Positions 9,588 to 33,033 of a stretch of DNA of 64,000 nucleotides are shown here, piece after piece. The DNA is from Aquibium microcysteis (GTDB taxonomy: Bacteria > Pseudomonadota > Alphaproteobacteria > Rhizobiales > Rhizobiaceae), in contig NZ_CP061080.1 of NCBI RefSeq assembly GCF_014495845.1, forward strand, positions 1 through 64,000, written 5' to 3'. A program made the position numbers and the translations under genes. The notes under the pieces are model-generated. The model had not been told where the DNA came from. It did not search any database and saw only the letters and a list, made by a program, of their open reading frames with translations. The stretch's first letter is position 1, and the number at the start of each line of letters is the position of its first letter.

Positions 9588-9664
<77 letters not shown>

Positions 9665-9725
9665 TTGTCTTCCCGCGTGCCGGAAGGCCCGGACGGCGTC
9701 CCGGGATCGATGCCGGTTTCCGGCT

Positions 9726-10931: not shown

Positions 10932-11239
10932 CGGCGGGTTTTCCTGAAAGACGCAACGTGACCGTCTTCGCCGCACGCAGTAAAAATGTCAACGATCGAC
11001 AAACGAAAATATCAAATCTGCCAAAAGGGTCGCAACTTCGTGCCTGCCCGAGGCGTCGAGCGGCGCGACCCGTCCGGCGCGCCACCCCGGGAAGCGTCGC
11101 AGCGCCCGAAGAATACGCGATAAATTCAACGAAAACAGGCCGGTGTAAAACATCCTGCACGCCGGGAGATTTTCCATCTTGCAGTGCACAACGGTTCTGA
11201 TAGCCTTTGAATCAGAAATGTCAGAAGCGGTGCGGTAGC
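10932..11239. other. AT-richer divergent intergenic region at the edge of the catabolic island
   Basis: This 308-base region lies between the divergent MFS gene and the first flavin reductase and is clearly richer in A+T than its surroundings. It should contain promoters for both directions. A TTGCAG at about 11180 with TAGCCT 16 bases further on is the only -35/-10-like pair I can offer, and it is weak. Confidence 0.35.
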
Positions 11240-11743
11240 ATGGTCGAAGGCGCAGGCACTTTGCCCGAAATCGATGCCAGGTCGTTCTGGGGCGCCATCG
11301 GATGCCGCGCCGTCGGAGCCGCGATCGTCACGACGATCGGCAGCGACGGGCCTTCGGGCTTTCTCGGCCTCTCGGCCACGCACCTGACGGCGTCACCGCC
11401 GACGATGACGGTGTCGATCGACCGCAGGACGAGCGCCTGCGCCGACATCCTCGCGTCGGGCGTCTTCGCCATCAACTACCTCGCAAGGTCGGGGCTGCCG
11501 GTCTTCGAACGCTTCGCTGCGCGCGACGGGCTGAAGGGCGCCGCCCGCTTCGAGGGCCTGGCGCTGCGCACCCTCGCCACCGGTGCGCCGGTCCTTCCCG
11601 GTATCGTCGGTGTGCTCGACTGCCGGCTGGACGAGGCGATCGAGCGCCACGGCGTCGTCATCGCGATCGGCAGGATCGCGGCTTTCGAAAGCGTCGGAGA
11701 CGCTGAACCATTGATCCACTACCAGGGACGGGTGATGGCATGA
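11240..11743 (+). CDS. flavin reductase-like protein (first of a tandem pair)
   Basis: A 167-residue protein of the flavin reductase-like domain family (HpaC/NtaB/RutF type), which supplies reduced FMN to partner monooxygenases. Segments GFLGLSATHLTASPPTMTVSI and VFAINYLARSG fit the conserved SFTSVSLDPPLVSFCV-like and FAVNVL elements. The frame is open from a TTG at 11207, but the ATG at 11240 begins a more natural N-terminus. Its stop overlaps the start of the next reductase by four bases (ATGA). It is shorter and more diverged than the second copy. Given two monooxygenases downstream, each reductase may serve one; that pairing is inference. Confidence 0.78.
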   Translation: MVEGAGTLPEIDARSFWGAIGCRAVGAAIVTTIGSDGPSGFLGLSATHLTASPPTMTVSIDRRTSACADILASGVFAINYLARSGLPVFERFAARDGLKGAARFEGLALRTLATGAPVLPGIVGVLDCRLDEAIERHGVVIAIGRIAAFESVGDAEPLIHYQGRVMA

Positions 11744-12234
11744 ACGAACGGGTCGACCTCTTCAAACTCGGCATGCGGCGCCTCGCCGCGGGCGTGTCGC
11801 TGATCACCACGCGCGACGACGCCGGCGTCCGCCACGGCATGATCGCCACCTCCGTGACGTCGGTCTGCCTGACGCCGCCGTCGCTGCTCACCTGCATCAA
11901 CAAGAGCGCGTCCTGCTACGACGTCCTGCTGTCGTCGGGCATCTTCTGCGTCAACCTTCTGTCCGAGGGCGACGACACGATCGCCGCCCGGTTCAGTTCC
12001 TCGAAGTTCCGCGAAGTGCGGTTTGCCGAAGGGCGGTGGGGCGAACTGGAGACGGGCGCCCCCGTCTACGAGAATGCGCTGGCGAGTTTCGATTGCCGCG
12101 TGACCACCAGCGTGGAAGCCTCCTCGCACACCATCTTCATCGGTGAAGTGGTCGCGGTGCGGCTCCCGGACAGCATGGCCTCGCCGCTCGTCTATCTGGA
12201 CGGCGCCTATGCGCGCTTCGCGGCGGCCGGCTGA
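11740..12234 (+). CDS. flavin reductase family protein (second of a tandem pair)
   Basis: A 164-residue NAD(P)H:flavin oxidoreductase of the flavin reductase-like domain family. Conserved features are GVSLITTRD near the N-terminus, the flavin-binding stretch MIATSVTSVCLTPPSLLTCI, FCVNLLSEG, and the C-terminal IFIGEVVAV. Free reduced FMN from such enzymes is consumed by two-component monooxygenases like the LLM proteins at 16427 and 17629. The ATG lies inside the stop of the preceding gene, so the pair is translationally coupled. It is related to its neighbour, so the two look like an old tandem duplication. Confidence 0.88.
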   Translation: MNERVDLFKLGMRRLAAGVSLITTRDDAGVRHGMIATSVTSVCLTPPSLLTCINKSASCYDVLLSSGIFCVNLLSEGDDTIAARFSSSKFREVRFAEGRWGELETGAPVYENALASFDCRVTTSVEASSHTIFIGEVVAVRLPDSMASPLVYLDGAYARFAAAG

Positions 12235-12432
12235 TCCTTCCTGCTGTCGCGGCGCCCGCTCCTCAGCCTGTCCCCGGCTGCGTCGATCGGGCGCTGCCGC
12301 GTCGGTTTGCGGGGCTGTCATTCGCCATCGTGAAATGTTAAGAGCGACCTCCAGAATGCCTGTCCGGCGACGGGCCGGCAGGGGTCCGGCGCGTCGTGCA
12401 TGGGCCAGGACACAGCATCGGGAGGAAGTACA

Positions 12433-13146
12433 ATGGTCCGCAGGAAGCCACCAGCCAAAGCAAAGACGCTGCTGCGCAACGACGCCTACGAAGTGATTCT
12501 GATGGCGATCATCGTCGGCGACCTGGAGCCGGGAGCGCGGGTCGACGAAAAGCAGATCATGCGGGACTTCAAGCTCGGCCAGGCGGCGGTGCGCGACGCG
12601 CTCTTTCGCCTGTCGCTCGAGGGGCTGGTCGAACGCCATGCCCGCATCGGCACCCGCATCGGCGATCTGGGCCTGCGCGAACTCCAGGACGTGTTCGAGG
12701 CGCGGATCCTCGTCGAGGGCCATGCCGCCGCACTGGCCGCGCACCGCGCCTCGCCGGAGGATCTGGCTGCCATCCGCGCCGCCTATGACGGTTACGAGGC
12801 CGTGGTCGAGGCGCGCGACATCCGTGCGCTGGTGGTGATGGACCGGGCGTTCCACCGGGCGCTGGCGGCGGCCTGCAAGAACTCGCAGATCGAGCAGACG
12901 GCCATCCGGCTGCACAACAATGCCGCGCGCTTCTGGTGCTTCGGCCTGAAGCGGACCAGCGTCGAGGCCAACAAGCGGCAGATCCGCGAGCATCTGAGGG
13001 TGGTCGACGCCATCGAGAAGAAGGATTTCGCCGAGATCGACCGCCTGCTGCGCGGCGTGCTCGGTCATTTCCCGGACAGCCGCTTCCTGATGTTCGACCC
13101 GCTGCGGCCGGACGAGCGCCCGGACGTGCCGGAAGCCGCAGAGTAG
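12433..13146 (+). CDS. GntR-family (FCD-type) transcriptional regulator
   Basis: A 237-residue regulator. The N-terminal winged helix (residues 10-75) shows YEVILMAIIVGDLEPGARVD and QAAVRDALFRLSLEGLVE; the C-terminal all-helical FCD ligand domain contains a metal-binding-type FHRALAAACKN motif. The start at 12433 is supported by GGAGGAAG six bases upstream, whereas the frame to 12400 is only open sequence. A strong terminator follows it. It sits between the reductase pair and the transporter/monooxygenase genes, so it is the obvious controller of the island; FCD regulators usually respond to the substrate or an intermediate, often a carboxylate. Confidence 0.9.
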   Translation: MVRRKPPAKAKTLLRNDAYEVILMAIIVGDLEPGARVDEKQIMRDFKLGQAAVRDALFRLSLEGLVERHARIGTRIGDLGLRELQDVFEARILVEGHAAALAAHRASPEDLAAIRAAYDGYEAVVEARDIRALVVMDRAFHRALAAACKNSQIEQTAIRLHNNAARFWCFGLKRTSVEANKRQIREHLRVVDAIEKKDFAEIDRLLRGVLGHFPDSRFLMFDPLRPDERPDVPEAAE

Positions 13147-13186
13147 CGCTGCCGCGCGGAGCGCCGCCTGCTCCCATTTCCCTCGA

Positions 13187-13216
13187 GGCCGCCCGGTTCG
13201 CCCGGCGGCCTTTTTT
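13187..13216 (+). terminator. Rho-independent terminator after the GntR gene
   Basis: GGCCGCC and GGCGGCC pair as a 7-bp GC stem around a 10-base loop and are followed directly by six Ts. It lies 40 bases after the regulator stop codon and insulates it from the transporter operon. Confidence 0.75.
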
Positions 13217-13517
13217 CATGCGGCCTGCGCTCGCTTCCGGTCCCGCGCGGGGTCCGTCGGCTGTTGCGGCGCATGACCGGCACGCCGCGCCCAAAAACCG
13301 GGCAGAATTTCCGGATGCCTCCACTTTGGACAAACTTTGTCGCCGAGAGATGAAAATTTTTCGTGCCGCCGGACATTGCGGCGCAGCATGGCGGCGCCCC
13401 GGCGCGCATGCGCGCGTATCGGGAAGAGAGTGGCGTTGCTTCCGAAATACTTGAAAGGAGCGCTTCGACGGGCCGGCCGGTCTTGGCATTGCATCTGCCG
13501 CAGTGCAGCATTTCCCA

Positions 13518-13569
13518 TTGACAGGCCGCGGGAAACGGTCTTCAAATTTGCGCAACAAGAATATTTGAA
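13518..13569 (+). promoter_or_regulatory. putative promoter and operator for the island's transport/oxygenase genes
   Basis: A consensus -35 box TTGACA (13518-13523) is followed after 17 bases by TTCAAA (13541-13546) as a -10 candidate. The same place holds an inverted repeat, TTCAAAT (13541-13547) and ATTTGAA (13563-13569), separated by 15 bases. A repressor bound there would block the promoter; the GntR protein encoded just upstream is the natural candidate. The ribosome binding site AGGGG follows, seven bases before the ATG at 13585. Binding is inferred, not shown. Confidence 0.5.
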
Positions 13570-13584
13570 AACAGGGGTACTGAA

Positions 13585-14610
13585 ATGTCAGAACGCAGGA
13601 GCGCGAGGAGCGTCTTCGGCTCGGTCGCCGTGGCGCTCGCCACGACCACCAGCGCCTACGCCCTCGATGAGGTTTCGATGGGCACGGGCTGGCTGGCCCA
13701 GGCCGAGCATGGCGGCTTCTACCAGGCCGTCGCCGATGGCACCTATGAGAAGTACGGACTGAAGGTGACCATCCTGATGGGCGGCCCGCAGTCCCCCAAC
13801 CGCGCCCGTCTCATCGCGGGGCAGGTGCAGTTCATCCAGGGCTCGACGCTCGGCGCGCTCGACGCGGTCGCCAACGACATCCCCACCACCACGGTCGCCG
13901 CGATCTTCCAGAAGGACCCGCAGGCGCTGCTGGCGCATCCGGGCACCGGCATCGAGACCATCGCCGATCTGGCCAAGCTCGAGACGATCTTCCTCGGCGG
14001 CGACGGCTACGACACCTTCTTCCGCTGGCTCAAGGCCACCTATCCCGGCTTCACGGACGGCCAGTACAAGCCCTACACCTACAATCCGGCGCCGTTCATC
14101 GCCGATCCCAAGTCCGGCCAGCAGGCCTACATCACCTCCGAGCCGCTCAACATCAGGAAGCAGGCCGGCTGGGACCCGCAGGCCTTCCTGCTCGCCGACT
14201 ACGGCTACACCGGCTACGCGACCACGATCGAGACGCAGGTCGACCTCGTCGAGAACAAGCCCGATCTCGTCAAGCGCTTCGTCGAGGCCTCCATCGTCGG
14301 CTGGTACAACTATCTCTACGGCGACAACGCGGCCGCCAACGAACTGATCAAGAAGGACAATCCGGAAATGACGGACGAGCAGATCGACTATTCGATCGCT
14401 CAGATGAAGAAATACGAGATCGTGCTCGCCGCCGACGCCAAGGAGAAGGGCATCGGCTGCATGACCGACGAGCGCTACGCCGGCTTCTACAAGGCGATGG
14501 TCGACGCCGGCGTCCTCGACGGCACGCTCGATCTGTCCAAGGCCTACACGACGCAGTTCGTCTGCAAGGGCGTCGGCATGGACCTCTACAAGGACCTGGC
14601 CGCCAACTGA
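13585..14610 (+). CDS. ABC transporter substrate-binding protein (NMT1/THI5-like)
   Basis: A 341-residue periplasmic binding protein with a Sec signal peptide (cleavage about residue 26, after AYA). The mature protein has the NMT1/THI5 fold pattern: MGTGWLAQAEHGGFYQAVADG near the start, YEKYGLKVTI, and GQVQFIQGS in the first hinge region. Such proteins deliver nitrate, sulfonates, pyrimidines or similar small solutes to NitT/TauT-type importers. It is the first gene downstream of the putative operator and precedes its own ATPase and permease genes. It is only distantly related to the tandem binding proteins at 20700 and 21782, so it probably binds a different ligand. Confidence 0.9.
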   Translation: MSERRSARSVFGSVAVALATTTSAYALDEVSMGTGWLAQAEHGGFYQAVADGTYEKYGLKVTILMGGPQSPNRARLIAGQVQFIQGSTLGALDAVANDIPTTTVAAIFQKDPQALLAHPGTGIETIADLAKLETIFLGGDGYDTFFRWLKATYPGFTDGQYKPYTYNPAPFIADPKSGQQAYITSEPLNIRKQAGWDPQAFLLADYGYTGYATTIETQVDLVENKPDLVKRFVEASIVGWYNYLYGDNAAANELIKKDNPEMTDEQIDYSIAQMKKYEIVLAADAKEKGIGCMTDERYAGFYKAMVDAGVLDGTLDLSKAYTTQFVCKGVGMDLYKDLAAN

Positions 14611-14667
14611 CGTTGGATCGGCGGCGCCGCATTCGCGGCGCCCCCACGGACAGTTCGAGGGGTGCAG

Positions 14668-15519
14668 ATGCTACAGCGATACAGCGCGGGCCAGGACATG
14701 GCCGCGGATTCTCCCGACCCGACGGGTGCTGGCCGCCCGGACCGTCCGATCGTGTCGATGCGCGACGTCGGCAAGGTCTTCGCCAACGGCACGATCGCGC
14801 TGTCGGGCATGTCGCTCGACGTCCGGCCGGGCGAGTTCGTCAGCCTGCTCGGCCCGTCCGGCTGCGGCAAGTCGACGGCGCTCAGGCTGGTGGCAGGGCT
14901 GGGCAGCGCCAGCGTCGGCCGGATCGAGTGGCCGACGTCGAGCTACACCCATGCCGGCGAACCCGAGCGCGAAATCAGCTTCGTCTTCCAGGAGCCGACG
15001 CTGATGCCCTGGGCGACCGTGTTCCGCAACGTCTGGCTGCCGCTCCGGCTGAAAGGCGTTTCGCGCCGCGCGGCGACCGAGCGGGTCATGGATGCGCTGG
15101 GCATGGTCGGGCTCGACAAGTTCGCCGAGCACTATCCGCGCGAACTCTCGGGCGGCATGAAGATGCGCGTCTCCATCGCCCGGGCTCTCGTCACCCGGCC
15201 GAAGGTGATGCTGATGGACGAGCCCTTCGCCGCGCTCGACGAGATCACCCGCCAGAAGCTCAACGACGACATCCTGCGCCTCTGGGGCGACCAGGGCTGG
15301 ACGGTCATCTTCGTCACCCATTCCGTCTTCGAGGCGGTCTACCTGTCGAGCCGCATCGTCGTCATGGCCGCCCGCCCGGGCCGCGTCATCGCCGACCTGC
15401 CCAACACGCTTTCCTATCCCCGCAGCGGGGATGTCCGGACCACCGCCGACTTCGCGGCCGCCAGCCGCGAGGTGTCGGAGGTCCTGCACCAGTCGATGGA
15501 CGCGGACGCACACCGATGA
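14668..15519 (+). CDS. ABC transporter ATP-binding protein (NitT/TauT type)
   Basis: A 283-residue nucleotide-binding subunit. Walker A is GPSGCGKST, the Q loop is FVFQEPTLMPWATV, the signature is LSGGMKMRVSIARAL, Walker B is VMLMDEPFAALDE, and the switch His is in VTHSVFEA. The chosen ATG at 14668 has GAGGGG five bases upstream; a GTG at 14662 is also in frame. The stop overlaps the permease start (ATGA), indicating coupled translation. It energises the importer formed with the binding protein at 13585 and the permease at 15516. Confidence 0.93.
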   Translation: MLQRYSAGQDMAADSPDPTGAGRPDRPIVSMRDVGKVFANGTIALSGMSLDVRPGEFVSLLGPSGCGKSTALRLVAGLGSASVGRIEWPTSSYTHAGEPEREISFVFQEPTLMPWATVFRNVWLPLRLKGVSRRAATERVMDALGMVGLDKFAEHYPRELSGGMKMRVSIARALVTRPKVMLMDEPFAALDEITRQKLNDDILRLWGDQGWTVIFVTHSVFEAVYLSSRIVVMAARPGRVIADLPNTLSYPRSGDVRTTADFAAASREVSEVLHQSMDADAHR

Positions 15520-16385
15520 GCAGCATCTCCCTGGAACCCGCCGGTCACACCGCCGCGCCCCTGGCCGCCACGGCGGCACCCGAAAGCCCGCTTCGCGCGA
15601 TCCTCCGGCGCGTCCTGCATGTCGCCGTCCCGCTCGCCACCCTCGTCGTCGTGCTACTCGTCTGGCAGTTCTACGTCACCGCCTACGAGGTGCCGCGCTA
15701 CATCCTGCCGGGACCGATGGAGGTCATCCGCGCCTTCCTCGCCGACTATCCGATGCTTTTTTCGGCACTCTGGGTGACACTCTCCATCACCTTCTCGGCG
15801 CTGGCGCTGGCGCTCGCAGGCGGGGTCCTCGTCGCCATCGCCTTCGCGCAGTCGCCCTGGCTCGAGCGCATCCTCTATCCCTATGCCGTGGTGCTGCAGG
15901 TCACGCCGATCGTCGCCATCGCGCCCCTCCTGATCATCTACGCGCCCTCGACGCACGCCGTGCTGCTGATGTGCGCCTTCCTCGTCGCCTTCTTCCCGAT
16001 CCTGTCGAACATGACGCAGGGGCTGAAGAGCACCGACCACAACCTCCTCAACCTCTTCGACATCTACCACGCCACCGCCTGGCAGCGGCTGCGCTACGTC
16101 AAGCTGCCAGGCGCGCTGCCCTATTTCGCGACGGGCCTGCGGATCGGCGGCGGGCTGGCGCTGATCGGTTCGGTCGTGGCCGAGTTCACCGCCGGTTCGG
16201 CCGGCACCGAATCGGGCCTGGCCTTCCGCATCCTGGAAGCGGGCCGACGGCTGAACGTGCCGCGGCTCTTCGCGGCCCTGCTGCTCATCACCGCCACCGG
16301 CGTGACCATCTTCTTCCTCACCAGCTTCATCTCCCACCTTCTCCTGCGGCGCTGGCACGAGAGCGCGCTGACCCGCGAGAACTGA
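15516..16385 (+). CDS. ABC transporter permease (NitT/TauT type)
   Basis: A 289-residue inner-membrane subunit with about six spans of the binding-protein-dependent permease family. The EAA-type cytoplasmic loop that docks with the ATPase is visible around residues 180-200 (FDIYHATAWQRLRYVKLPGA). The N-terminal 30 residues are an Ala/Pro-rich cytoplasmic tail. The start overlaps the ATPase stop by four bases. Together with the two preceding genes it makes a complete importer. Confidence 0.92.
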   Translation: MSSISLEPAGHTAAPLAATAAPESPLRAILRRVLHVAVPLATLVVVLLVWQFYVTAYEVPRYILPGPMEVIRAFLADYPMLFSALWVTLSITFSALALALAGGVLVAIAFAQSPWLERILYPYAVVLQVTPIVAIAPLLIIYAPSTHAVLLMCAFLVAFFPILSNMTQGLKSTDHNLLNLFDIYHATAWQRLRYVKLPGALPYFATGLRIGGGLALIGSVVAEFTAGSAGTESGLAFRILEAGRRLNVPRLFAALLLITATGVTIFFLTSFISHLLLRRWHESALTREN

Positions 16386-16426
16386 GATGACGCAGAACGC
16401 AGCATCGCCCACAGGAGGCTTTCCCC

Positions 16427-17527
16427 ATGCGCAAGGTTGAACTCGGCGTCTTCATGCCGGTCGGAAGCAACGGCTTCCTCATGTCGAAGCGCACGCCGCG
16501 CTACCACCCCACCTTCGAGCTGCATCACCAGATCGCGCAGATCGCCGAGGACATCGGCCTCGACTACCTGTTCTGGATGGGCAAGTGGATGGGCTTCGGC
16601 GGCGAATCCGGCTTCTGGAAGAACACGATCGAGCCGATGTCGGTGGCCAGTTCGCTGGCCCCGCTGACCAAGCGGCTGAAGCTCTTCGCCACCGTCAACC
16701 CGCTGCTCTTCCACCCCGCGGTGGCGGCCAAGATCATCGCCACCATCGACAACATCTCCGGCGGCCGCTTCGGCATCAACATCGTCACCGGCAACACGCT
16801 GGAGGAGCTGGAGCAGATGGGCGTGGTGCCGGAGGGCTACGGCGACTATCGCTACGAATATGCCGACGAGTGGATCCGCGTCATGAAGATGCTGTGGAGC
16901 CAGGACCGCAGCACCTTCGAGGGCCGCTTCTTCAAGCTCGCCGACTGCGTGTCCGACCCCAAGCCGATCCGCAAGCCCTACCCCTATCTGGTCAGCGCCG
17001 GGCTGTCTTCCGACGGCCTCTCCTTCGCCGCCAGGCATTCCGACTACCAGTTCGTCGGCCTGCGCCCGGCCGACGTCGAGCGCACCCGCGCGGCGGCGGC
17101 CGCCGAGGGCCGCTCCATCAAGGTCGTCACCTCCATGCTGCTCCTGCACGGCGAGACCGACCAGGCTGCCGAGCGCGAGTTCGAGCTGATCCGCGAGGAC
17201 CTCGACACCGAGGCGCTCGACAATCTGATCGCCTCCTTCGAGCGCGACAACCGCGACAGCTACAAGGACCGGACCTCCTATCTGCGCCAGCCGAACACCG
17301 TCGGTTTCGGCTCCGGCCACCCGGTCATCGGCGCGCCCGACACCATGGCCGAGAAGCTGGCGCAGCTGATCATCGAGACCGGCATCGACGGCATCCAGTT
17401 CACCTGCGTCGACTTCGTGAAGGACCTGAAGCTGTTCGGCGCGGTCGTGCTGCCGAAGCTGAAGGCCATCCTCGCCAGACACGACATCGTCGTGGCCGAC
17501 GCACCCGCCGCGCGGGTCGCGGCCTGA
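16427..17527 (+). CDS. RutA-like LLM-class flavin-dependent monooxygenase
   Basis: A 366-residue TIM-barrel monooxygenase of the luciferase-like (LLM) class. It resembles the pyrimidine oxygenase RutA throughout: VFMPVGSNGFL at the N-terminus, PTFELHHQIAQIAE, ATIDNISGGRFGINIVTGN, and YADEWIRVMKMLW. RutA-type enzymes use FMNH2 supplied by a reductase and O2, via a flavin N5-peroxide, to break C-N bonds in uracil. The start is fixed by AGGAGG upstream. No other rut genes are present, so uracil is not necessarily the substrate; family members also act on sulfones and nitrilotriacetate-like compounds. It follows the first importer and precedes a second LLM enzyme. Confidence 0.87.
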   Translation: MRKVELGVFMPVGSNGFLMSKRTPRYHPTFELHHQIAQIAEDIGLDYLFWMGKWMGFGGESGFWKNTIEPMSVASSLAPLTKRLKLFATVNPLLFHPAVAAKIIATIDNISGGRFGINIVTGNTLEELEQMGVVPEGYGDYRYEYADEWIRVMKMLWSQDRSTFEGRFFKLADCVSDPKPIRKPYPYLVSAGLSSDGLSFAARHSDYQFVGLRPADVERTRAAAAAEGRSIKVVTSMLLLHGETDQAAEREFELIREDLDTEALDNLIASFERDNRDSYKDRTSYLRQPNTVGFGSGHPVIGAPDTMAEKLAQLIIETGIDGIQFTCVDFVKDLKLFGAVVLPKLKAILARHDIVVADAPAARVAA

Positions 17528-17537
17528 CGATTGCTTT

Positions 17538-17555
17538 CCCGGCCCGCGGGCCGGG
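17538..17555 (+). repeat. 18-base perfect palindrome between the two monooxygenase genes
   Basis: CCCGGCCCG followed by its exact complement CGGGCCGGG forms a very stable hairpin 10 bases after the first monooxygenase. No T-run follows, so it is more likely an mRNA-stabilising or partial-termination stem than a full terminator. Confidence 0.5.
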
Positions 17556-17628
17556 CTTCCACAGTCGCTTATCCGCACGGTCGCCCCCGGCGACCGACGA
17601 GCTTCCTGTTGCCTGACGGATCCCTGCA

Positions 17629-18966
17629 ATGACCACCAAGATGCATATCGGTTACGACCTGTCCTGGATTCAGCTCGAAGGGCGCTGGCGCCTGCCGGGC
17701 TCCTGGACCAACGCCCACTATCCGGACATGCGCTTCTTCAAGGAACTGGCGCTGATTGCCGAGCGCGGCCTGATGGACTTCATGTTCTGGGGCGACGGCA
17801 CCGGCATTCCGAGCACCTGGAAGGGCAACCGCGACGACGCCGTGCGCTGGGGCGTCGGCTGGCCGCGCCAGGACATGAGCCCCTACATCGCCGCGCTGTC
17901 GCAGATCACCTCGCGCATCGGCTTCGGGCTGACCTACTCCTCCACCTACATGCACCCGTTCTACACGTCGCGGCTCCTGAACTCGCTCGACCATGTGACG
18001 GGCGGGCGCATCGCCTTCAACGTCGTCGCCTCGTCGCGGAAGGCCGACGCGGCGAACTACGGTTTCGACGAGCTGATGGAGCACGACCAGCGCTACGAGC
18101 GGATGGAAGAGTTCGTCGACGTCTGCAAGGCACTCTGGGCGAGCGTGGCGCCCGACGCCTTCATCCTCGACCGCGACTCCGGCGTCATGGCCGACCCGGC
18201 GAAGGTCAAGGCCATCGGCCATCGCGGCAAGTTCTTCAACGTCATGGGTCCGCTCGCCTGCGTGCCCTCGCCGCAGGGCCGGCCGGTGCTGGTGCAGGCC
18301 GGCGCTTCGCCGCGCGGCATCCAGGCCTCGGCCTATTTCGCCGACATGGTCTTCGCCGCCAGCCCCGGCAAGGACAAGCAGGTGAAGCACCGCAAGGCGC
18401 TCGACGCCGCGCTCACCGCCCAGGGCCGCGACCCGTCCGGCGTCGGCATCGTCTGGGACGTGGTGCTGATCGTCGGCGAGACCGACGAGGATGCGAAGCG
18501 CCGCCACGAGCAGCTGCTCACCGCCGTGCCGCCGGAGGCCGTCGGCGCCTTCATGTCGCATCAGATCGGCTACGACCTGTCGAAGCTGCCCGACAGCTTC
18601 ACCATCGCCGAGATCAACGAGCAGATCGTCAAGGCCAACGCCTCGCCCGTCGGCTTCCTCAATATGACGACCGGCATCGACCCGCAGGAGACGATCACGA
18701 AGGACGCCTTCTACGAGGTCATCAAGCACCACACCGCCGGCTACGACCACGCCATCGTCGGCTCGGCCGAGAAGGTCGCCGACTATCTGGAGGAGATCTT
18801 CGTGGCCACCGGCGAGCGCGGCGGCTTCATGATCGCCCACCCGCCGGCGGTGCCGCGCGACCTGCTCAACGTCGTCGACTTCCTCATCCCCGAACTGCAG
18901 CGCCGCGGCCGTTTCCGCAAGGAATACCGCTATTCGACGCTGCGCGAGAACCTCCTCGACTCCTGA
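17629..18966 (+). CDS. NtaA/SnaA/DszA-family flavin-dependent monooxygenase
   Basis: A 445-residue LLM-class enzyme of the larger NtaA/SnaA/DszA subfamily. Diagnostic stretches are GSWTNAHYPDMRFFKELALI, FMFWGDGTGIPSTW, GFGLTYSSTYMHPFYTSRLL, DHVTGGRIAFNVV, HRGKFFNVMGPL and VLVQAGASPRGIQASAYFAD. Members oxidise nitrilotriacetate, dibenzothiophene sulfone or pristinamycin with FMNH2 from a separate reductase. It is about 80 residues longer than the RutA-like neighbour and belongs to a different branch, so two successive oxidations, or two substrates, are likely. It lies 101 bases after the first oxygenase and 18 before a permease gene. Confidence 0.9.
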   Translation: MTTKMHIGYDLSWIQLEGRWRLPGSWTNAHYPDMRFFKELALIAERGLMDFMFWGDGTGIPSTWKGNRDDAVRWGVGWPRQDMSPYIAALSQITSRIGFGLTYSSTYMHPFYTSRLLNSLDHVTGGRIAFNVVASSRKADAANYGFDELMEHDQRYERMEEFVDVCKALWASVAPDAFILDRDSGVMADPAKVKAIGHRGKFFNVMGPLACVPSPQGRPVLVQAGASPRGIQASAYFADMVFAASPGKDKQVKHRKALDAALTAQGRDPSGVGIVWDVVLIVGETDEDAKRRHEQLLTAVPPEAVGAFMSHQIGYDLSKLPDSFTIAEINEQIVKANASPVGFLNMTTGIDPQETITKDAFYEVIKHHTAGYDHAIVGSAEKVADYLEEIFVATGERGGFMIAHPPAVPRDLLNVVDFLIPELQRRGRFRKEYRYSTLRENLLDS

Positions 18967-18984
18967 CACGAAAGGACAAGGCTG

Positions 18985-19809
18985 ATGGCTCTGGTCACCG
19001 GTTTCGACGCGACTGCCTCCGGCAGGATCGCTTCCCTCGCAGGTGCGATCGCCGGGTCGGACCGGACGCGCCATGCCGTGATCTCGTTCCTCTCCGTGGT
19101 CTCGCTGGTCGCGCTCTGGCAGTTCGGCTCCATGACGCTTCCCTCGAGCGTGCTGCCCGGTCCGGTCCGCGTGGTGTCGGCGCTCGTCGCCAACGTCCTG
19201 CAGGGCGACATCTTCACCGACATCGCCATCACGCTCGGGCGCATCGCGGCCGCCTTTGCCATCGCCATGGGGGTCGCGCTCGTGCTCGGCTTCTCCATGG
19301 CGCTGTCGCGCACGGCGGGGATCTTCTTCCACGTCTGGATCATCTGCGGCATCACCATCCCCGCCCTCGTGACCATCCTGACGCTCTACATGGTGGTCGG
19401 CCTCAACGACACCGCCGCCGTCCTCGGGGCGGCCGCGCCGGTCATTCCGGTGCTCGCCATCAACATCCGAGAGGGCGTGAAGGGCATCGACACCCGCCTG
19501 ATCGGCATGGCGCGTGCCTTCCGGGCCGACCGGCGCCAGCAGATCGTGTCGGTGATGGCGCCGCAGGTGGCGCCGATGCTGCTCGCCTCCACCCGCTTCG
19601 GCATCGGCCTCGTCTGGAAGATGGTGCTGTTCGTCGAACTGCTCGGGCGCGGCAGCGGCGTCGGCTACAAGATCGAGTTCTTCTACCAGATGTTCAACAT
19701 GACCGAGGTTCTCGCCTACGCGCTGAGCTTCGTCTTCGTCATGCTGTTCATCGAGGTGGCGATCCTCGGCACCATCGAACGCCGCATCTTCCGCTGGAAG
19801 CGGAACTGA
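18985..19809 (+). CDS. ABC transporter permease (second importer)
   Basis: A 274-residue binding-protein-dependent permease with six predicted spans, of the SsuC/TauC type. The EAA loop is around residues 170-190 (GMARAFRADRRQQIVSVMAP). It is followed 11 bases later by an ATPase gene and then two binding-protein genes. It is clearly a separate permease from that at 15516, with a different N-terminus, so the island contains two full importers. Confidence 0.9.
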   Translation: MALVTGFDATASGRIASLAGAIAGSDRTRHAVISFLSVVSLVALWQFGSMTLPSSVLPGPVRVVSALVANVLQGDIFTDIAITLGRIAAAFAIAMGVALVLGFSMALSRTAGIFFHVWIICGITIPALVTILTLYMVVGLNDTAAVLGAAAPVIPVLAINIREGVKGIDTRLIGMARAFRADRRQQIVSVMAPQVAPMLLASTRFGIGLVWKMVLFVELLGRGSGVGYKIEFFYQMFNMTEVLAYALSFVFVMLFIEVAILGTIERRIFRWKRN

Positions 19810-19820
19810 GGTCCGGCGCC

Positions 19821-20654
19821 ATGACCTTTCCCTTCCGTCCCCCCGCTTCGGTACAGGCCGCCATGTCCCAGATCTCCCTGACCGACATCCACAAGCAGTT
19901 CCCCGGCCGCGGCGGCAAGGGCGGCTGGAAGGCGCTCGACGGCGTCTCCTTCGACATCGCGACCGGCGAGATCGTCGGCCTGCTCGGGCCGTCCGGCTGC
20001 GGCAAGTCGACCCTGCTCAACATCGTCGCCGGTCTAGACGACACCTACGAGGGGACCGTCGCCATCCAGGGCCGTCCCCTGGCCGAACAGATCGGCCAGG
20101 GCTTCCGCGTCGCCTACGTTTTCCAGGAAGCGCGGCTGATGCCCTGGCGGACGCTGCGCGGCAACATCGAGTTCGTGCTCCAGGCGGCCGATTTCCCGCG
20201 GACGGAGTGGGCCGGGCGCATCGACCGGGTGCTCGGGCTGGTCGAGCTCTCCAAGTTCGCCGATTTCTTCCCGCTCCAGTTGTCGGGAGGCATGCAGCAG
20301 CGCGCCTCGATCGCCCGGGCCTTCGCCATCGAGCCGGACATCCTGTTGATGGACGAGCCGTTCAGCGCGCTCGACGAACTGACCGCGCGGCGGCTGCGCC
20401 AGAGCCTGCTGACCATCTGGTCGGCTTTCCGCACCACCATCCTCTTCGTCAGCCACAACGCCTTCGAATCCACCTTCCTCGGCGACCGCGTGCTGGTCAT
20501 GAGCCCCGGCCCCGGCGGGCGCATCAAAGAGGAGATCAATCTCCGCCACATCCAGCGGCCGCGCGACTACGAGGACACCGCGCTCTTCGTCGAGAGCAAG
20601 CGCGTGGTCGAGAGCCTGCAGCGGCACATGGGAAACCGGCCGGAGCATCACTGA
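19821..20654 (+). CDS. ABC transporter ATP-binding protein (second importer)
   Basis: A 277-residue NitT/TauT-type ATPase: Walker A GPSGCGKST, Q loop YVFQEARLMPWRTL, signature LSGGMQQRASIARAF, Walker B ILLMDEPFSALDE, switch VSHNAFES. I use the ATG at 19821, which has GAGG upstream; a second ATG at 19863 would give a protein 14 residues shorter and cannot be excluded. It pairs with the permease at 18985 and the binding proteins at 20700 and 21782. Confidence 0.92.
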   Translation: MTFPFRPPASVQAAMSQISLTDIHKQFPGRGGKGGWKALDGVSFDIATGEIVGLLGPSGCGKSTLLNIVAGLDDTYEGTVAIQGRPLAEQIGQGFRVAYVFQEARLMPWRTLRGNIEFVLQAADFPRTEWAGRIDRVLGLVELSKFADFFPLQLSGGMQQRASIARAFAIEPDILLMDEPFSALDELTARRLRQSLLTIWSAFRTTILFVSHNAFESTFLGDRVLVMSPGPGGRIKEEINLRHIQRPRDYEDTALFVESKRVVESLQRHMGNRPEHH

Positions 20655-20699
20655 CGACGTCCCCCAGCATCGACACCGAACCCACCACGGAGCATTCGC

Positions 20700-21695
20700 A
20701 TGATCCTGACGCGCAGACTGGCCATGGCGGCCGTGCTTTTCGCCGGCGCACTCCTTTCCACCGGCGCTTCCGCCGAAACGCCGATGGGCGATGGCGGGAC
20801 CATTCGACTGATGTCGAACCCGGTCGGCACCCAGTCCTACCCGCCCTACGTCATCGACAAGTTCAATCTCGACGAGAAATACGGCTTCAAGCTGGAGGTG
20901 ATCCCCTTCACCAACCCCCAGGCCGCCGTCGCCGCGCTGCAGAGCGCCAGCATCGAGGCGGTCGTGCAGGACTGGATCTCGGTCGCGCGGCTGCGCAACC
21001 AGAACATCCCCGTCATCGGCGTCGCGCCCTTCCTCTCCTATGTGAACACGGTGCTCCTGCCGGCGGACTCGACGGTGAAGACGCTCGCCGACCTGAAGGG
21101 GAAGCGCCTCGGCACCTACACCAAGACCGGCTTCGACTGGATCATCCTCCAGGCCGTGGCCAAGACGCAGTACGGTTTCGATCTCGCCAAGGAAGTGACG
21201 CTGCAGGAAGGCGCGCCCTCGCTGCTGCGCGGCTCGCTCGAGCAGGGCCAGCTCGACGCGACGCTCATGTACAATTCGCTGACCCCCGACATGATCCTGT
21301 CGGGCAACGCCAAGCTGCTGATGACCATCCACGACGTCGTCGCCGAACTCGGCCTCGCCGAGGCGCCGTTCCTCATGTACGCCATGCGCGAGGACTACGC
21401 GAAGGCGAACCCGCAGAACGCGAAGGCCTTCGTGGCCGCCTATCAGGAGGCCATCGACATCCTCCTCTCCAATGCCGACGTGTGGAAGGAGCAGGGCCAG
21501 AACATGAAGCTCGCCCCCGAGGCGACCGAGATGTTCCGCCAGAACGCCAGCAAGGAGTTCATCAAGGCCTTCACGCCGGCGATGGCGGGCGTGCTCGACC
21601 AGACCTTCAAGGTTCTGCTGGACACGGCCGGACCCGACACCATGGGCATGACGGCCATGCCCGACGCGGTCCTGACCCTCGACTATCAGCCCTGA
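20700..21695 (+). CDS. ABC transporter substrate-binding protein (tandem copy 1)
   Basis: A 331-residue periplasmic binding protein with a classical signal peptide (cleavage after ASA, about residue 25). The mature protein begins ETPMGDGGTIRLM and contains VIDKFNLDEKYGFKLEVIPF, LADLKGKRLGTYTK and LLRGSLEQGQLDA, the pattern of NitT/TauT binding proteins. It has a ribosome binding site GGAG before the ATG. The next gene is a clear paralogue aligned along its whole length, so the permease/ATPase pair upstream appears to be served by two binding proteins. Confidence 0.92.
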   Translation: MILTRRLAMAAVLFAGALLSTGASAETPMGDGGTIRLMSNPVGTQSYPPYVIDKFNLDEKYGFKLEVIPFTNPQAAVAALQSASIEAVVQDWISVARLRNQNIPVIGVAPFLSYVNTVLLPADSTVKTLADLKGKRLGTYTKTGFDWIILQAVAKTQYGFDLAKEVTLQEGAPSLLRGSLEQGQLDATLMYNSLTPDMILSGNAKLLMTIHDVVAELGLAEAPFLMYAMREDYAKANPQNAKAFVAAYQEAIDILLSNADVWKEQGQNMKLAPEATEMFRQNASKEFIKAFTPAMAGVLDQTFKVLLDTAGPDTMGMTAMPDAVLTLDYQP

Positions 21696-21781
21696 ACCCT
21701 CCGGCGGCGGGCGCGGACCGCGCCCGCCATGCCGTCCTCTCACGCTCCGCACACACACACCGCTCACGGGATTTGTTCGCC

Positions 21782-22780
21782 ATGTTCCACTTCGCACGTG
21801 CCGCGGCGTCCGCCGCCATCGCCCTCGGCATGCTCGCCGCGAACCCCGTCGCCGGTGCGGCCGAACCCATCGGCGACGGCGGCGTCGTCCGCATGATGGC
21901 GAGCCCCTACGGCTCGCAGTCCTTCATCCCCTTCGTGATCGACAAGTTCGACCTCGACACGAAATACGGCTTCCAGCTCGAGCGCATCGTCTTCTCCGAC
22001 AGCAAGGCCGCCGCCGCCGCCATCCAGTCCGGCAGCGCCGAGATCGCGCTGTTCGACTGGAACACGCTCGCCCTGATGCGCAACGGCGGCATCGACGTGA
22101 TCGGGATCGCGCCCTTCATCACCTATGTGAGCACGATCGTCGTGCCGAAGGAGTCTCCGATTAGGGGCGTCGGCGATCTCAAGGGTAGGAAGTTCGGCAT
22201 CTTCTCGCGCCAGAGCACCGACTGGATCCTCGTCGATACGCTGGCGCGCAAGAACTACGAGCTCGATCTGGCGAAAGACGCGCAACTGGTCGAGGCGGCG
22301 CCACCGCTGCTGCGCGGCTCGCTGGAACAGGGCGCCATCGACGCCACCATCATGTTCTCCTCCATCGCGCCCGACATGCTGGCGACGGGGAAGTTCCGCA
22401 ACGCCTTCGCCATCCGCGACGTCGCCGAGGAACTCGGCCTGCCGCTGGCGCCCTACCTGATGATCGGCACCACGGAGCGCTACGCCGCCGAGAAGCCGCA
22501 GAACGTGAAGGCCTTCGTCGCCGCCTACCAGGAGGTCTACGACATCCTCATGAAGGACGACGGCGTCTGGCAGGAGCAGGGCACCAACATGAAGCTCTCG
22601 CCCGAGGCGATCGTCTTCTACCGCGACCAGATGCGCCGCGACATGCTGCGCTCCTTCGGCGATCAGGACGACGCGACGCTGCACAAGACCTTCGACCTGC
22701 TGCTCGAGACGGCGGGCGCCAAGGCGCTCGGCATGGAGGCGATGCCGCAGACGATCCTGAGCCTCGAGTTCCAGCGATAG
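21782..22780 (+). CDS. ABC transporter substrate-binding protein (tandem copy 2)
   Basis: A 332-residue paralogue of the preceding binding protein, with signal peptide cleavage near residue 26 (AGA). Aligned landmarks are IGDGGVVRMMASPYGSQSF, FVIDKFDLDTKYGFQLERI, GDLKGRKFGIFSRQ and LLRGSLEQGAIDA. Roughly half of the positions match the first copy by eye. Residues expected to line the ligand cleft differ (for example QDWISVARL in copy 1 against FDWNTLALM here), which suggests a related but different ligand. There is no separate ATPase or permease, so it probably shares that of the second importer. Confidence 0.92.
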   Translation: MFHFARAAASAAIALGMLAANPVAGAAEPIGDGGVVRMMASPYGSQSFIPFVIDKFDLDTKYGFQLERIVFSDSKAAAAAIQSGSAEIALFDWNTLALMRNGGIDVIGIAPFITYVSTIVVPKESPIRGVGDLKGRKFGIFSRQSTDWILVDTLARKNYELDLAKDAQLVEAAPPLLRGSLEQGAIDATIMFSSIAPDMLATGKFRNAFAIRDVAEELGLPLAPYLMIGTTERYAAEKPQNVKAFVAAYQEVYDILMKDDGVWQEQGTNMKLSPEAIVFYRDQMRRDMLRSFGDQDDATLHKTFDLLLETAGAKALGMEAMPQTILSLEFQR

Positions 22781-22805
22781 CCGGCAGGGAGGGCAGGGGA
22801 GCGCC

Positions 22806-23111
22806 ATGATCGTCGAGACCACCAACTACTTCGCCAAGCCGGGCCTCGCCGACGCGGTCCTGGAGCGGCGGCGCGAGGGATCGCGGCTGCGCCGCACGCT
22901 CGGCCTCGCCGCCGGATGCATCCTGGTCAACCGGGGCGGCCCCGGACCCGACGTGCGCTGGGAGTGCAGCTTCGCCGACGAGGCCGCCTTCGCCGCCGAT
23001 CTCGCCGCCCGCGACGCCAGCCCCGAATTCGCACGGCAGCGCGCCGAAATGGGCGCGCTCACCGACCGCTTCGAGCGGCACGTCTTCACCGTCGACGACA
23101 CCGAATTCTGA
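22806..23111 (+). CDS. small dimeric alpha/beta-barrel-like protein
   Basis: A 101-residue soluble protein beginning MIVETTNYFAKPGLADAVL. The beta-alpha-beta pattern and the Gly/Asp-rich middle followed by WECSFADEAAFAADLAAR resemble the ferredoxin-like NIPSNAP or stress-responsive Dabb-type folds, which often act as small dimeric enzymes or modifiers in degradation operons. I do not recognise a specific family. It starts 25 bases after the second tandem binding protein and ends 45 bases before the asparaginase-fold gene, so it belongs to the same operon. Confidence 0.6.
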   Translation: MIVETTNYFAKPGLADAVLERRREGSRLRRTLGLAAGCILVNRGGPGPDVRWECSFADEAAFAADLAARDASPEFARQRAEMGALTDRFERHVFTVDDTEF

Positions 23112-23156
23112 CACGACGCGGCGCTTTTGGCCGCCACACCAGCAAGGACGAACACC

Positions 23157-24875
23157 ATGGCCGCAACCACCAAGGGCACGGGCAAGAAGATCCGGATCGC
23201 GCATCTGGCGGGTCCCAACGCCACGATCCAGAACACGCCGCCGCTGGTGACGTCGAACAAGGCGCGCGCCGCGCATGGCCTGCCGCTGCTCACCGATGTG
23301 GAAGGCAAGCCCTCGCGCTTCGACCCGCTGCGGCCGCAGAAGCTCGCCGCGCCCGTCACTGTCTATGTCGAGCAGTTCTCCGCCCACCCGCTGGAGAAGG
23401 ACGTGGCCGAACTCTACGCGCCGGCCGACGGCTATCTCGACGCCGCCGGGAACTTCTCCACCGAAAGGACCTCGCCCGACGACAGGCCGGTCTACAAGGT
23501 CGAGATCGGTCCGGAGGACGGCTACTACCCGCTGCCCTACATGGCCCGCCAGGCCGACGGTTCGGCCTGGGAGACCGACGGCACCACGATGCGCGCCGAT
23601 CGCGCGCATTCGCGCCAGCCCTTCATGCCGGACGGCGCGCGCACCTTCGAGGAGGTCGACCGTCTCGGCGTCGACAGCCTGGGCATCGGCAACACGATCT
23701 CGAATGTCGCCGACGTCGACTTCTTCCGCCTCGCGCCGTCCGCCGGCTACACCAAGGGCCTGCCGGCGGCCGAGCGGACGGACATGGGCGAGGGCGACAT
23801 CGCGCCGGAGGTGGCCGGCGCGAACTTCTTCCCCTACCGGCCGGCGCATCTCAACCAGTCGCCGCCGCGCATGACGCTCGCGCGCATCACCAACATGGCG
23901 CAGACGATCCTGTCGTCGGGCGACTATGACGGCGCGATCTGGACGCAAGGCAGCCCGCGCGTCGAGGAGACCGTCTACTGGTTCAATCTCGCCCTCGACG
24001 TCACGGTCCCGGTCATCGGCAACGCCTCGCAGCGCTACCACGGCCAGATCAGCAATGACGGGCCGAAGAACCTCGCCGATTCCGTCGACTGGCTGTCCTC
24101 GAAGGTCTGGGCCGACGAGCACGGGCGCAACCGCGTCGGCGTCGTCATGGTGCAGGACCAGCGCGTCTTCGCCGCCCGCGAGGTCACCAAGGTCGACGCG
24201 CGGCCGGGCGGCTATGCGGTCGCCGGCGGCCATGGCGGCATCCTGGGGGCCGGCGGCGGCGGCACCGGCTCGGTGCTGCGCTACGTGCCGGCGACGAAGC
24301 ACACCTGGCAGTCGGAGGTGAACGTCTCGAAGCTGCCGAGTTCCGTCACCGGCATCCGCCTCGGCGAGAGCGGCATCGAGACGCTGGACGTGGCGGTGAA
24401 GGACGCCGCCGACGCCATCCTGGAGACAGCGATCCCCAAGGTCTCCATCGTCAAGGATGCGAGCTACATCGAGGACGACTGGACGAGCGATCCGGCGCAG
24501 GAGGTCGATACCATCGCCTTCATGGACTACAAGCTGAAGCACGCGCCTCTCTCGGGCTTCGTGCTCGAGGGTCTGAACCCCTACGGCAAGGCGGCCGCCA
24601 CCTCCAAGTCGCGCATCCTGCTCAGGGCCGTCTTCAGCGGCTTCCCGGTCGTCAATGTCGGGCGCGGCACCACCGAGGGCTTCGCCATCCGCGGCGGCCC
24701 CTTCATCGCCGGCTCGAACCTCACCTCGGTCAAGGCGCGCATCCTCCTGATGCTCTGCATCATGAAGTTCGGCATGCTCCCGCCGGCGAAGGACCCGCTG
24801 AAGCCGACGCGGGAGGAGATGGCCGCGACCGAGGCGAAGCTCGCGCTCTATCAGGAGATCTTCGACACGCACTGA
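23157..24875 (+). CDS. asparaginase-fold protein with a non-canonical active site
   Basis: A 572-residue protein whose residues about 250-560 align with bacterial L-asparaginases. DGAIWTQGSPRVEET (258-272) corresponds to the DGFVITHGTDTMEET motif, SNDGPKNL to SADGPFNL, REVTKVD with Lys345 to the RDVTKTN lysine, and PATKHTWQSEVNVSKL to the PARKHTSDTPFDVSKL loop; HLAGPNATIQN (16-26) may be the TGGTI loop. The catalytic Thr-Asp pair of that family is here Ser266-Pro267, and about 200 extra residues separate the first two motifs. Ordinary asparagine hydrolysis is therefore unlikely; amide or lactam cleavage or a new reaction is possible. The start at 23157 is supported by AAGGA upstream. It is the last gene of the island. 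Confidence 0.8.
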   Translation: MAATTKGTGKKIRIAHLAGPNATIQNTPPLVTSNKARAAHGLPLLTDVEGKPSRFDPLRPQKLAAPVTVYVEQFSAHPLEKDVAELYAPADGYLDAAGNFSTERTSPDDRPVYKVEIGPEDGYYPLPYMARQADGSAWETDGTTMRADRAHSRQPFMPDGARTFEEVDRLGVDSLGIGNTISNVADVDFFRLAPSAGYTKGLPAAERTDMGEGDIAPEVAGANFFPYRPAHLNQSPPRMTLARITNMAQTILSSGDYDGAIWTQGSPRVEETVYWFNLALDVTVPVIGNASQRYHGQISNDGPKNLADSVDWLSSKVWADEHGRNRVGVVMVQDQRVFAAREVTKVDARPGGYAVAGGHGGILGAGGGGTGSVLRYVPATKHTWQSEVNVSKLPSSVTGIRLGESGIETLDVAVKDAADAILETAIPKVSIVKDASYIEDDWTSDPAQEVDTIAFMDYKLKHAPLSGFVLEGLNPYGKAAATSKSRILLRAVFSGFPVVNVGRGTTEGFAIRGGPFIAGSNLTSVKARILLMLCIMKFGMLPPAKDPLKPTREEMAATEAKLALYQEIFDTH

Positions 24876-24996
24876 CGGATCGGCCCGTTCCGGACCGCCG
24901 GATCCGCGCCGCATTTCGCAGCCGGTCCGGCTTTGCGGTTGCCTTTTGCCGTCCGCCGGGTTTAGAGGACGCGACGATCTATCGGAAGGAACCGCC

Positions 24997-25302
24997 ATGT
25001 CAGCCCGTATCTACAGCCCGGCCAAGACCGCCATGCAGTCCGGCAAGGCCAAGACCGGCCGGTGGCTGCTGGAGTTCGATCCGGAGGCACCGAAGAAGAT
25101 CGACCCGCTGATGGGCTACACCACGTCGAACGACATGAAGAGCCAGATCCGCCTCGTCTTCGATACCCGCGAGGAGGCCGTCGCCTACGCCACCAAGCAC
25201 GGCATCCCCTTCCGCGTCCAGGAGCCGAAGGAAGCCAAGCGGCGGCAGATTTCCTATTCCGACAATTTCCGCTATGACCGCAAGGTGCCGTGGACGCACT
25301 GA
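24997..25302 (+). CDS. NADH dehydrogenase complex I accessory subunit (NDUFS4-like)
   Basis: A 101-residue protein of the ETC complex I conserved-region family related to mitochondrial NDUFS4, the accessory subunit at the peripheral arm near the N module. Characteristic segments are ARIYSPAKTAMQSGKAKTG, WLLEFDPEAP, DPLMGYTTSNDMKSQIRL, FDTREEAVAYATKHGI and the C-terminal YSDNFRYDRKVPWTH. AAGGA lies before the ATG. Such genes are common in Alphaproteobacteria and often stand alone, as here, just upstream of a tRNA gene. Confidence 0.93.
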   Translation: MSARIYSPAKTAMQSGKAKTGRWLLEFDPEAPKKIDPLMGYTTSNDMKSQIRLVFDTREEAVAYATKHGIPFRVQEPKEAKRRQISYSDNFRYDRKVPWTH

Positions 25303-25344: not shown

Positions 25345-25421
25345 GGTCCCGTAGCTCAGATGGATAGAGCACCGGCCTTCTAAGCCGATGGTCGCAGGTT
25401 CGAGTCCTGCCGGGATCGCCA
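25345..25421 (+). tRNA. tRNA-Arg (anticodon TCT)
   Basis: A 77-base cloverleaf. The acceptor GGTCCCG pairs with CGGGATC (one G-U pair); loop CTTCTAA carries anticodon TCT; the T arm has GTTCGAGTC; CCA is encoded at the 3' end. The first pair of the anticodon stem is a C-A mismatch. Confidence 0.96.
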
Positions 25422-33004: not shown

Positions 33005-33033
33005 CGGGCGCCGGTCGCGCGACGGGGCGGCCC

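Follow-up and report, generated by a model that had tools for sequence, protein, structure and literature searches.

The first 64,000 nucleotides of contig NZ_CP061080.1 of Aquibium microcysteis, referred to here as the window, carry between positions 11240 and 24875 a run of 14 consecutive plus-strand genes (Table 1). These encode two flavin reductases (FR1 and FR2), a GntR-family regulator with an FCD domain, two NitT/TauT-type ATP-binding cassette (ABC) importers with three substrate-binding proteins (SBP1, SBP2, and SBP3), two flavin oxygenases of the luciferase-like monooxygenase (LLM) type (LLM-R and LLM-N), a small protein, and an asparaginase-fold protein (ASPL). A block of about 15 genes is present in several soil- and plant-associated bacteria, with one of the copies plasmid-borne.

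The sequence-only reading of this DNA had listed the 14 genes in this order and all of them were found. The pairing of LLM oxygenases and flavin reductases that it described, along with the two importers, three binding proteins, FCD regulator, and asparaginase-type protein, is borne out by Pfam, where the block has two Flavin_Reduct, one GntR with FCD, three NMT1, two ABC_tran, two BPD_transp_1, two Bac_luciferase, and one Asparaginase (PF00710). The start that it gave to FR1, the ATG at 11240, is a possible one in the sequence. Its mention of several 4-base overlaps is overstated, as there are such overlaps at two junctions, FR1/FR2 and ATP1/PERM1, the remaining genes being 11–438 bases apart. 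SBP2 and SBP3 are 48% identical, and over their aligned parts the two ABC ATPases are 40% and the two permeases 26% identical. The 101-aa small protein has no Pfam family at 1e-3, its NIPSNAP match being sub-threshold (E 0.048). A divergent major facilitator superfamily (MFS) gene, which lies beyond the limits of the earlier reading, accompanies the block in three of five syntenic cassettes.

Table 1. Features of the block and its flanks in the window
Feature	Position	Strand	Remarks
tRNA-Pro(TGG)	9588..9664	+	ARAGORN; left boundary of insertion
MFS transporter	9726..10976	-	Divergent from operon; Pfam MFS_1 4e-41
Candidate operator CAGAAATGTCAG	11213..11224		2 mismatches to CTGAAATTTCAG; 15 bp 5' of FR1 ATG; weak
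FR1, flavin reductase	11240..11743	+	Pfam Flavin_Reduct 6.7e-24; open reading frame (ORF) opens 11207, ATG 11240
FR2, flavin reductase, RutF-like but below RutF cut-off	11740..12234	+	Pfam Flavin_Reduct 1.1e-43
GntR-family regulator with FCD domain	12400..13146	+	Pfam GntR 1.2e-10, FCD 8.6e-24
Candidate operator CTGAAATGTCAG	13580..13591		1 mismatch to CTGAAATTTCAG; overlaps SBP1 start codon
SBP1, substrate-binding protein, importer 1	13585..14610	+	Pfam NMT1 9.8e-18; A. vitis counterpart 68%
ATP1, ABC ATPase, importer 1	14662..15519	+	Pfam ABC_tran 6.9e-33
PERM1, ABC permease, importer 1	15516..16385	+	Pfam BPD_transp_1 1.1e-23
LLM-R, RutA-like LLM flavin oxygenase	16427..17527	+	Pfam Bac_luciferase 3.2e-48; TIGR03612 248.5 bits
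LLM-N, NtaA/DmoA-family LLM flavin oxygenase	17629..18966	+	TIGR03860 382.3 bits
PERM2, ABC permease, importer 2	18985..19809	+	Pfam BPD_transp_1 2.4e-16
ATP2, ABC ATPase, importer 2	19821..20654	+	Pfam ABC_tran 1.7e-32
SBP2, substrate-binding protein, importer 2	20700..21695	+	Pfam NMT1 2.8e-18
SBP3, tandem SBP2 paralogue	21782..22780	+	Pfam NMT1 5.7e-18
Small protein, 101 aa, weak NIPSNAP match	22806..23111	+	Immediately 5' of ASPL in five syntenic cassettes
ASPL, 572-aa asparaginase-fold protein, large inserts, Gly-Ser-Pro replacing Gly-Thr-Asp	23157..24875	+	
Small conserved gene, right flank, outside block	24997..25302	+	Found in 5/5 genus genomes; empty-site alignment
tRNA-Arg	25345-25421		3' of gene at 24997

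The gene set is kept together in other genomes, and the non-conservation that would have spoken against the earlier reading was therefore not found. In Aquibium sp. ELW1220 the proteins of the cassette are 89–98% identical to those of the window. The cassette of a further genome of the same family (G904; 64–90% identity) has importer 2 only, with one of SBP2 and SBP3, and that of N. aestuarii (65–86%) likewise has importer 2 only. On a conjugative plasmid of A. vitis CG957 the cassette (57–76%), with insertion sequence (IS) elements nearby, has importer 1 only, no counterpart of FR1, and the order reductase, regulator, SBP, ATPase, permease, LLM-R, LLM-N, small protein, ASPL. In a Rhodospirillales metagenome-assembled genome (MAG), LLM-R (57%), LLM-N (65%), and ASPL (71%) are arranged in a different order, together with a permease (56%) and related binding proteins; the stretch examined has no match to the small protein, the reductases, or the regulator. 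The core set is thus FR2, the regulator, either importer, LLM-R, LLM-N, the small protein, and ASPL, with both importers present in the two Aquibium genomes.

Chance clustering of these genes is ruled out by the synteny in distant genomes. Among the listed homologues, which are the best 120 only (119 for LLM-N), the length of the longest contig was identical in 12 ASPL/LLM-R, 11 ASPL/LLM-N, and 8 LLM-R/LLM-N pairs. By chance, means of 0.95, 0.66, and 0.73 would be reached, with maxima of 5, 4, and 4. The gene set is rare. In genome samples that may overlap, and with the own genome counted in each, LLM-R is found at E<=1e-60 in 20 of 397 genomes of the order, all other listed matches being 35–41% identical, and at E<=1e-90 in 3 of 227 genomes from the family and in 1 of 140 from the phylum. 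LLM-N is found at E<=1e-100 in 2 of the 397 genomes of the order (the other copy is 42% identical) and in 4 of 327 genomes from the class, where the best other match is 60% identical, and ASPL at the same threshold in 6 of the 397.

The block is an insertion and probably a horizontally mobile cassette. The whole insertion is placed between tRNA-Pro, which ends at 9664, and the small conserved gene at 24997, which we take to be of the NDUFS4/complex-I type. Four other genomes of the genus (G001–G004) were compared at this site. In three that are free of the block (G001, G002, and G003), the tRNA-Pro match is 63, 64, and 252 bp before the counterpart of this gene, while in the window the two are separated by about 15.3 kb, part of which is the divergent MFS gene. 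There is no ASPL match in these three genomes, of which G002 is 69% complete. The fourth, G004, apparently Aquibium sp. ELW1220, has the block at the same site as in the window. In G904 the MFS gene and the cassette are together at a different site, with no tRNA in the 19.5 kb examined. The MFS gene is upstream of FR1 in loci L158 (64%) and L125 (95%), with no match to it in the examined stretches of L014 and L122. No word of 9 bases or more, as an att-type repeat, is common to 9588–9760 and 24801–25010, and neither an integrase nor a transposase was recognised among the block genes given a family by Pfam. Elsewhere in the window there are a class II (D, K, N) tRNA synthetase, a gyrase/topoisomerase subunit A, and an RND pump, which fits a chromosomal location.

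The solved structure nearest to LLM-R is RutA (218 bits), with SfnG next. With TIGR03612, the RutA model, LLM-R reaches 248.5 bits, where the cut-off is 498.3, and with TIGR04021, the SfnG model, 168.9 bits, where the cut-off is 382.95. The genome has a separate RutA at 3.895 Mb, which at 616 bits is above the NCBIfam cut-off. The block shares with the Rut pathway a RutA-family oxygenase and a flavin reductase, the latter being the only one of the rutB–G partners in common, and even here FR2 (135.4 bits) and FR1 (54.1 bits) are under the 254.75-bit cut-off of the RutF model TIGR03615. Unlike the Rut pathway, the block has ABC importers, and RutB–E and RutG were not recognised among its genes. 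In the tree, for which about every fourth homologue was taken (as for LLM-N), the solved RutA and the RutA of the own genome are in a 34-row group without any of the seven cassette or pair copies (93/100, not the top class of support). SfnG forms a very long branch, the place of which is unsure, and when it serves as the second reference, the cassette rows make up one side of a branch in only 46% of bootstrap trees. Sequence P0058, with frame breaks near its end, was excluded from alignments A2 and A4.

The residues of the RutA dioxygen pocket given in the available text of PMC7662398 are T105, N134, V136, and F224, and LLM-R has T89, N118, V120, and F209 at these positions. Among 118 LLM-R homologues (2 of 120 were dropped, their size being outside 330–400 aa), these are T or S in 117, with one gap, and N, V or I, and F in all 118. 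In contrast, all 118 have Phe at the position of RutA Leu65, and that of Trp139 is N in 88, S in 17, T in 6, A in 4, Q in 2, and G in 1. Leu is present at the former in RutA, SfnG, and 26 other tree rows, with Trp at the latter in all but one. As the oxygen-pocket residues are kept and these two changed, LLM-R probably binds oxygen as RutA does, with part of the pocket differing.

LLM-N scores 382.3 bits on TIGR03860, the model of the NtaA/DmoA family of flavin mononucleotide (FMN)-dependent monooxygenases, against a subfamily cut-off of 279.7. It has Thr102 and Asn131 at oxygen-pocket positions, and its nearest solved relatives are DszA and DmoA. It shares with DszA, DmoA, LadA, and HcbA1 this subfamily model and the oxygen-pocket Thr and Asn but is 32–36% identical to them (for LadA over part of the length) and is in a separate clade, the cassette rows being on one side of the tree (100/99) and these four enzymes on the opposite side (100/98). 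In trees without NtaA, EmoA, RcaE, and YtnJ and with the place of SfnG unsure, neither oxygenase was found in a clade with the characterised enzymes, a placement that would also have spoken against the earlier reading. The known dsz, nta, and emo systems were considered and set aside: no partner genes were recognised in the block, and LLM-N is apart from the DszA clade. The earlier observation that other rut, nta, and dsz genes are lacking held, with no rutB–G, dsz, or nta partner recognised in the block and the separate RutA lying elsewhere. At 488.7–492.8 kb of the own genome (G000:C1:488735-492845, locus L132) there are two tandem relatives of LLM-N, 39–40% identical and in a separate clade. 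Together with a neighbouring ABC ATPase and permease and a weak match to a flavin reductase, they form a second, different LLM cassette.

ASPL has a predicted asparaginase fold, which it shares with the type II L-asparaginase AnsB. Unlike AnsB, it is 572 aa, with about 250 extra residues, and has Ser-Pro in place of Thr-Asp. By sequence alignment Ser266-Pro267 correspond to AnsB Thr89-Asp90, so the canonical catalytic motif is absent; Ser and Pro are each present in at least 90% of 100 sequences. The loss of Asp90 is not unique to ASPL, because an aligned asparaginase (L006) has Ala there. Thr23 is invariant in the 100 sequences. An ungapped reading of the matched range, with model position 11 as EcAII residue 1, would put Ala22 at the place of Thr12, and a profile alignment to six asparaginases from relatives gives no clear register for Thr12. 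One genome collection has the family at 222 places; ASPL matches at E<=0.001 number 4,021, possibly including ordinary asparaginases. Where a source gives the family a name, this is often L-asparaginase or hypothetical protein, and the active-site motif leaves the former name unsupported. In the unannotated record of Neorhizobium sp. EC2-8 (L124:15103-16840) the gene is in several pieces, which may be a pseudogene or a sequencing error. A link to 3-cyanoalanine was also looked into: the available part of PMC8567248 has nitrilases and an unspecified asparaginase and shows no link to ASPL.

The neighbourhoods of 80 of the 222 ASPL loci were examined, with neighbour families assigned from one Pfam-scanned representative per cluster, except for the ABC ATPase cluster, which was defined by phmmer matches alone. 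Within 8 kb there is an ABC ATPase in 41, a family-5 binding protein in 18, an amidase in 14, FCD GntR in 8, FmdA/AmdA in 8 (directly upstream, at 14–211 bp, in 8/8), nitrile hydratase alpha in 4 (directly downstream in 4/4), UreF in 4, and molybdopterin dehydrogenase in 4. In R. lusitanum and N. galegae LLM-R adjoins ASPL, with no LLM-N-clade gene in the stretches examined. Clusters there (families scanned in R. lusitanum and assigned in N. galegae through shared clusters) have an amidohydrolase nearest to 5'-deoxyadenosine and 8-oxoguanine deaminases, dihydroorotate-dehydrogenase (DHODH)-type proteins, a hydantoinase/carbamoylase-family amidase, and a PTPS-like protein, with a molybdopterin dehydrogenase also in N. 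galegae. These neighbours of ASPL and LLM-R point to N-heterocycles and amides.

On an R. tumorigenes plasmid (L123:5828-22804) ASPL belongs to a single co-directional run that also includes urease genes, a formamidase, and a dipeptide-type importer, and amidases lie alongside on the opposite strand; this is possibly an amide/urea scavenging island. In L017 and L019 the LLM-R/ASPL pair is present with beta-RFAP-synthase-family, PTPS-like, DHODH-like, deaminase-like, and carbamoylase-like genes, and these clusters may belong to pteridine or purine-type metabolism. A 54% identical relative of LLM-N is near hutF, hutI, hutH, hutG, and hutC in G512 C13 (L147:2497-15225), and ASPL with a distant LLM is near hutC, hutI, and hutF at L038:18241-21603; a hut link, being present at two loci only, was not built on.

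The sequence-only reading had proposed that the island imports and opens a small N-containing or organosulfur compound. This proposal is supported, and the evidence leans to an N-heterocycle or amide over an organosulfur compound. With moderate confidence, we infer that the cassette serves to import an N-heterocycle or cyclic amide and to open it oxidatively in two steps, after which an amide or ureide would be hydrolysed. The FCD GntR regulator would probably control the cassette in response to the substrate, a small molecule that either importer (both, in this genome) would bring in. FR2, and here also FR1, would supply reduced FMN to the two group-C flavin oxygenases, of which LLM-R would open an amide or heteroaromatic C–N bond in a redox-neutral reaction via a flavin-N5-peroxide, and LLM-N would make a second oxidative cut at a C–N (or C–S) bond. 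ASPL, with its changed catalytic triad, might then hydrolyse the exposed amide or ureido group, releasing nitrogen, and the small protein could, at a guess, handle an intermediate. The available text of PMC8283759 has RutA-like group C enzymes using flavin-N5-peroxide for redox-neutral cleavage of carbon–heteroatom bonds, and the portions of the literature available name RutA, DszA, and HcbA1 as LLM-type enzymes of this chemistry. The more specific proposal, an undescribed pathway in which two flavin-N5-peroxide oxygenases act in series on an N-heterocycle or cyclic amide, first a RutA-like ring opener whose substrate pocket is new and next an enzyme of the NtaA/DmoA type, with a hydrolase from a new class of the asparaginase fold lacking the canonical Asp90 to follow, is put forward only tentatively. 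No prior description of the gene set or of ASPL was found in the open full-text literature, and one is possible in the subscription papers, which were mostly outside the search.

Several points weigh against this reading. LLM-R is near ASPL (8 kb) in 5 of the 80 loci and LLM-N in 4, one of these distant, so that most loci are without such an oxygenase, and the neighbour counts are raw, without a background rate, on contigs that are often short. ASPL has no equivalent of Asp90 and hydrolysis is therefore not assured. The changes in the LLM-R pocket are not specific to the cassettes: they are also present in homologues of 40–46% identity placed on the RutA side in the tree, which makes them older than the cassettes. 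The Thr/Asn pair is present in DmoA and LadA also and is thus no proof of N5 chemistry in LLM-R.

A further such point is in the importers, where SBP2 and SBP3 have their best scores, none of which reaches the cut-off, against binders of aliphatic sulfonates and taurine, as would be expected if the substrate were an organosulfur compound. The binding proteins are NMT1-type with a like ABC ATPase and permease, as in SsuABC/TauABC, but where matched all three are below the SsuA and taurine-binder cut-offs; on the SsuA model TIGR01728 (163.5 bits) SBP2 scores 62.1, SBP1 25.9, and SBP3 53.1 (longer ORF). Scavenging of a sulfonate, a sulfone, or a compound of this kind, its C–S bonds cut in turn by the two oxygenases to give sulfite as in ssu, msu, sfn, or dsz, would also fit DszA and DmoA being the solved relatives nearest to LLM-N and SfnG being second to RutA for LLM-R. 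Yet family scans recognised no sulfur-assimilation gene in the block, the neighbours of ASPL at other loci include genes for formamidase, amidase, nitrile hydratase, and urease, and those of the LLM-R/ASPL pair include N-heterocycle-type enzymes. SfnG, moreover, has Ala where LLM-R has the RutA-like Thr105. We consider this explanation unlikely. The substrate could not be read from binding-protein structures, as the nearest solved chains, 9b1u and 9ooz, are without a useful name and the literature gave only chance text matches.

The copy on a conjugative plasmid with IS elements nearby and the tRNA-linked insertion would suit a cassette for degradation of a xenobiotic such as an agrochemical, recently spread on plasmids. 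However, one of the copies comes from an environmental MAG, none of the block genes of the window was recognised as a transposase, and identities of 57–98% for LLM-R and 65–97% for LLM-N between cassettes are low for recent spread, which makes this decidedly improbable. Degradation of an aminopolycarboxylate or secondary amine, in which LLM-N would be an NtaA/EmoA-type N-dealkylase and LLM-R and ASPL would finish the products, agrees with the match of LLM-N to the NtaA/DmoA subfamily model. Against it, the solved nitrilotriacetate (NTA) and EDTA monooxygenases, which are not in the tree, score below DszA, DmoA, LadA, HcbA1, and YtnJ for LLM-N, and none of the block genes was recognised as being of the iminodiacetate- or sarcosine-oxidase type; it is accordingly regarded as very doubtful. 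A second rut-type pathway on uracil or thymine, for which RutA as the nearest solved structure to LLM-R could be cited, is the least credible, the canonical pathway being set aside on the model score, on the changes at Leu65 and Trp139, and on the RutA above cut-off elsewhere in the genome, with no rutB–G partners recognised in the block.

Flavin-N5-peroxide enzymes with known substrates are few. The mobile, self-contained N-heterocycle or amide cassette proposed here, with both oxygenase families and its own importers and regulator, would bring a new substrate, and perhaps a new reaction, within experimental reach. Members of the ASPL family are spread over amide, nitrile, urea, and oxygenase operons and, if the reading is right, the family would be a general amide- or ureide-releasing enzyme recruited by different nitrogen-scavenging operons.

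Candidate operators of the FCD GntR regulator are suggested by the sequence CTGAAATTTCAG. N. aestuarii and A. vitis have perfect copies of it in the interval that separates the regulator from the gene after it. In the window it is present twice with up to 2 mismatches, at 11213 and 13580 (CAGAAATGTCAG and CTGAAATGTCAG), where the chance mean is 0.64 and 15 of 100 shuffles reach two. In 1.27 Mb of other loci there are 33 sites with up to 2 mismatches, or about one in 40 kb, so that 2-mismatch sites alone mean little, and 4 with up to 1. Perfect or 1-mismatch sites are at 13580 of the window, 9121 of L125, 3215 of L014, and 13869 and 15336 of L122; the only site in L158 has 2 mismatches, and that in L015 is far from the cassette. 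As the site at SBP1 overlaps the start codon, coding may be what keeps it. The motif TNGT...ACNA, which we take to be the classical FCD operator, is not present in 15 stretches.

Further along the window, at 32305–33708, there is a 467-aa ORF with a DUF2459 domain in its final part, which is preceded by an ABC-importer-like stretch with a family-3 binding protein (28477–29700) and a permease (31003–32160).

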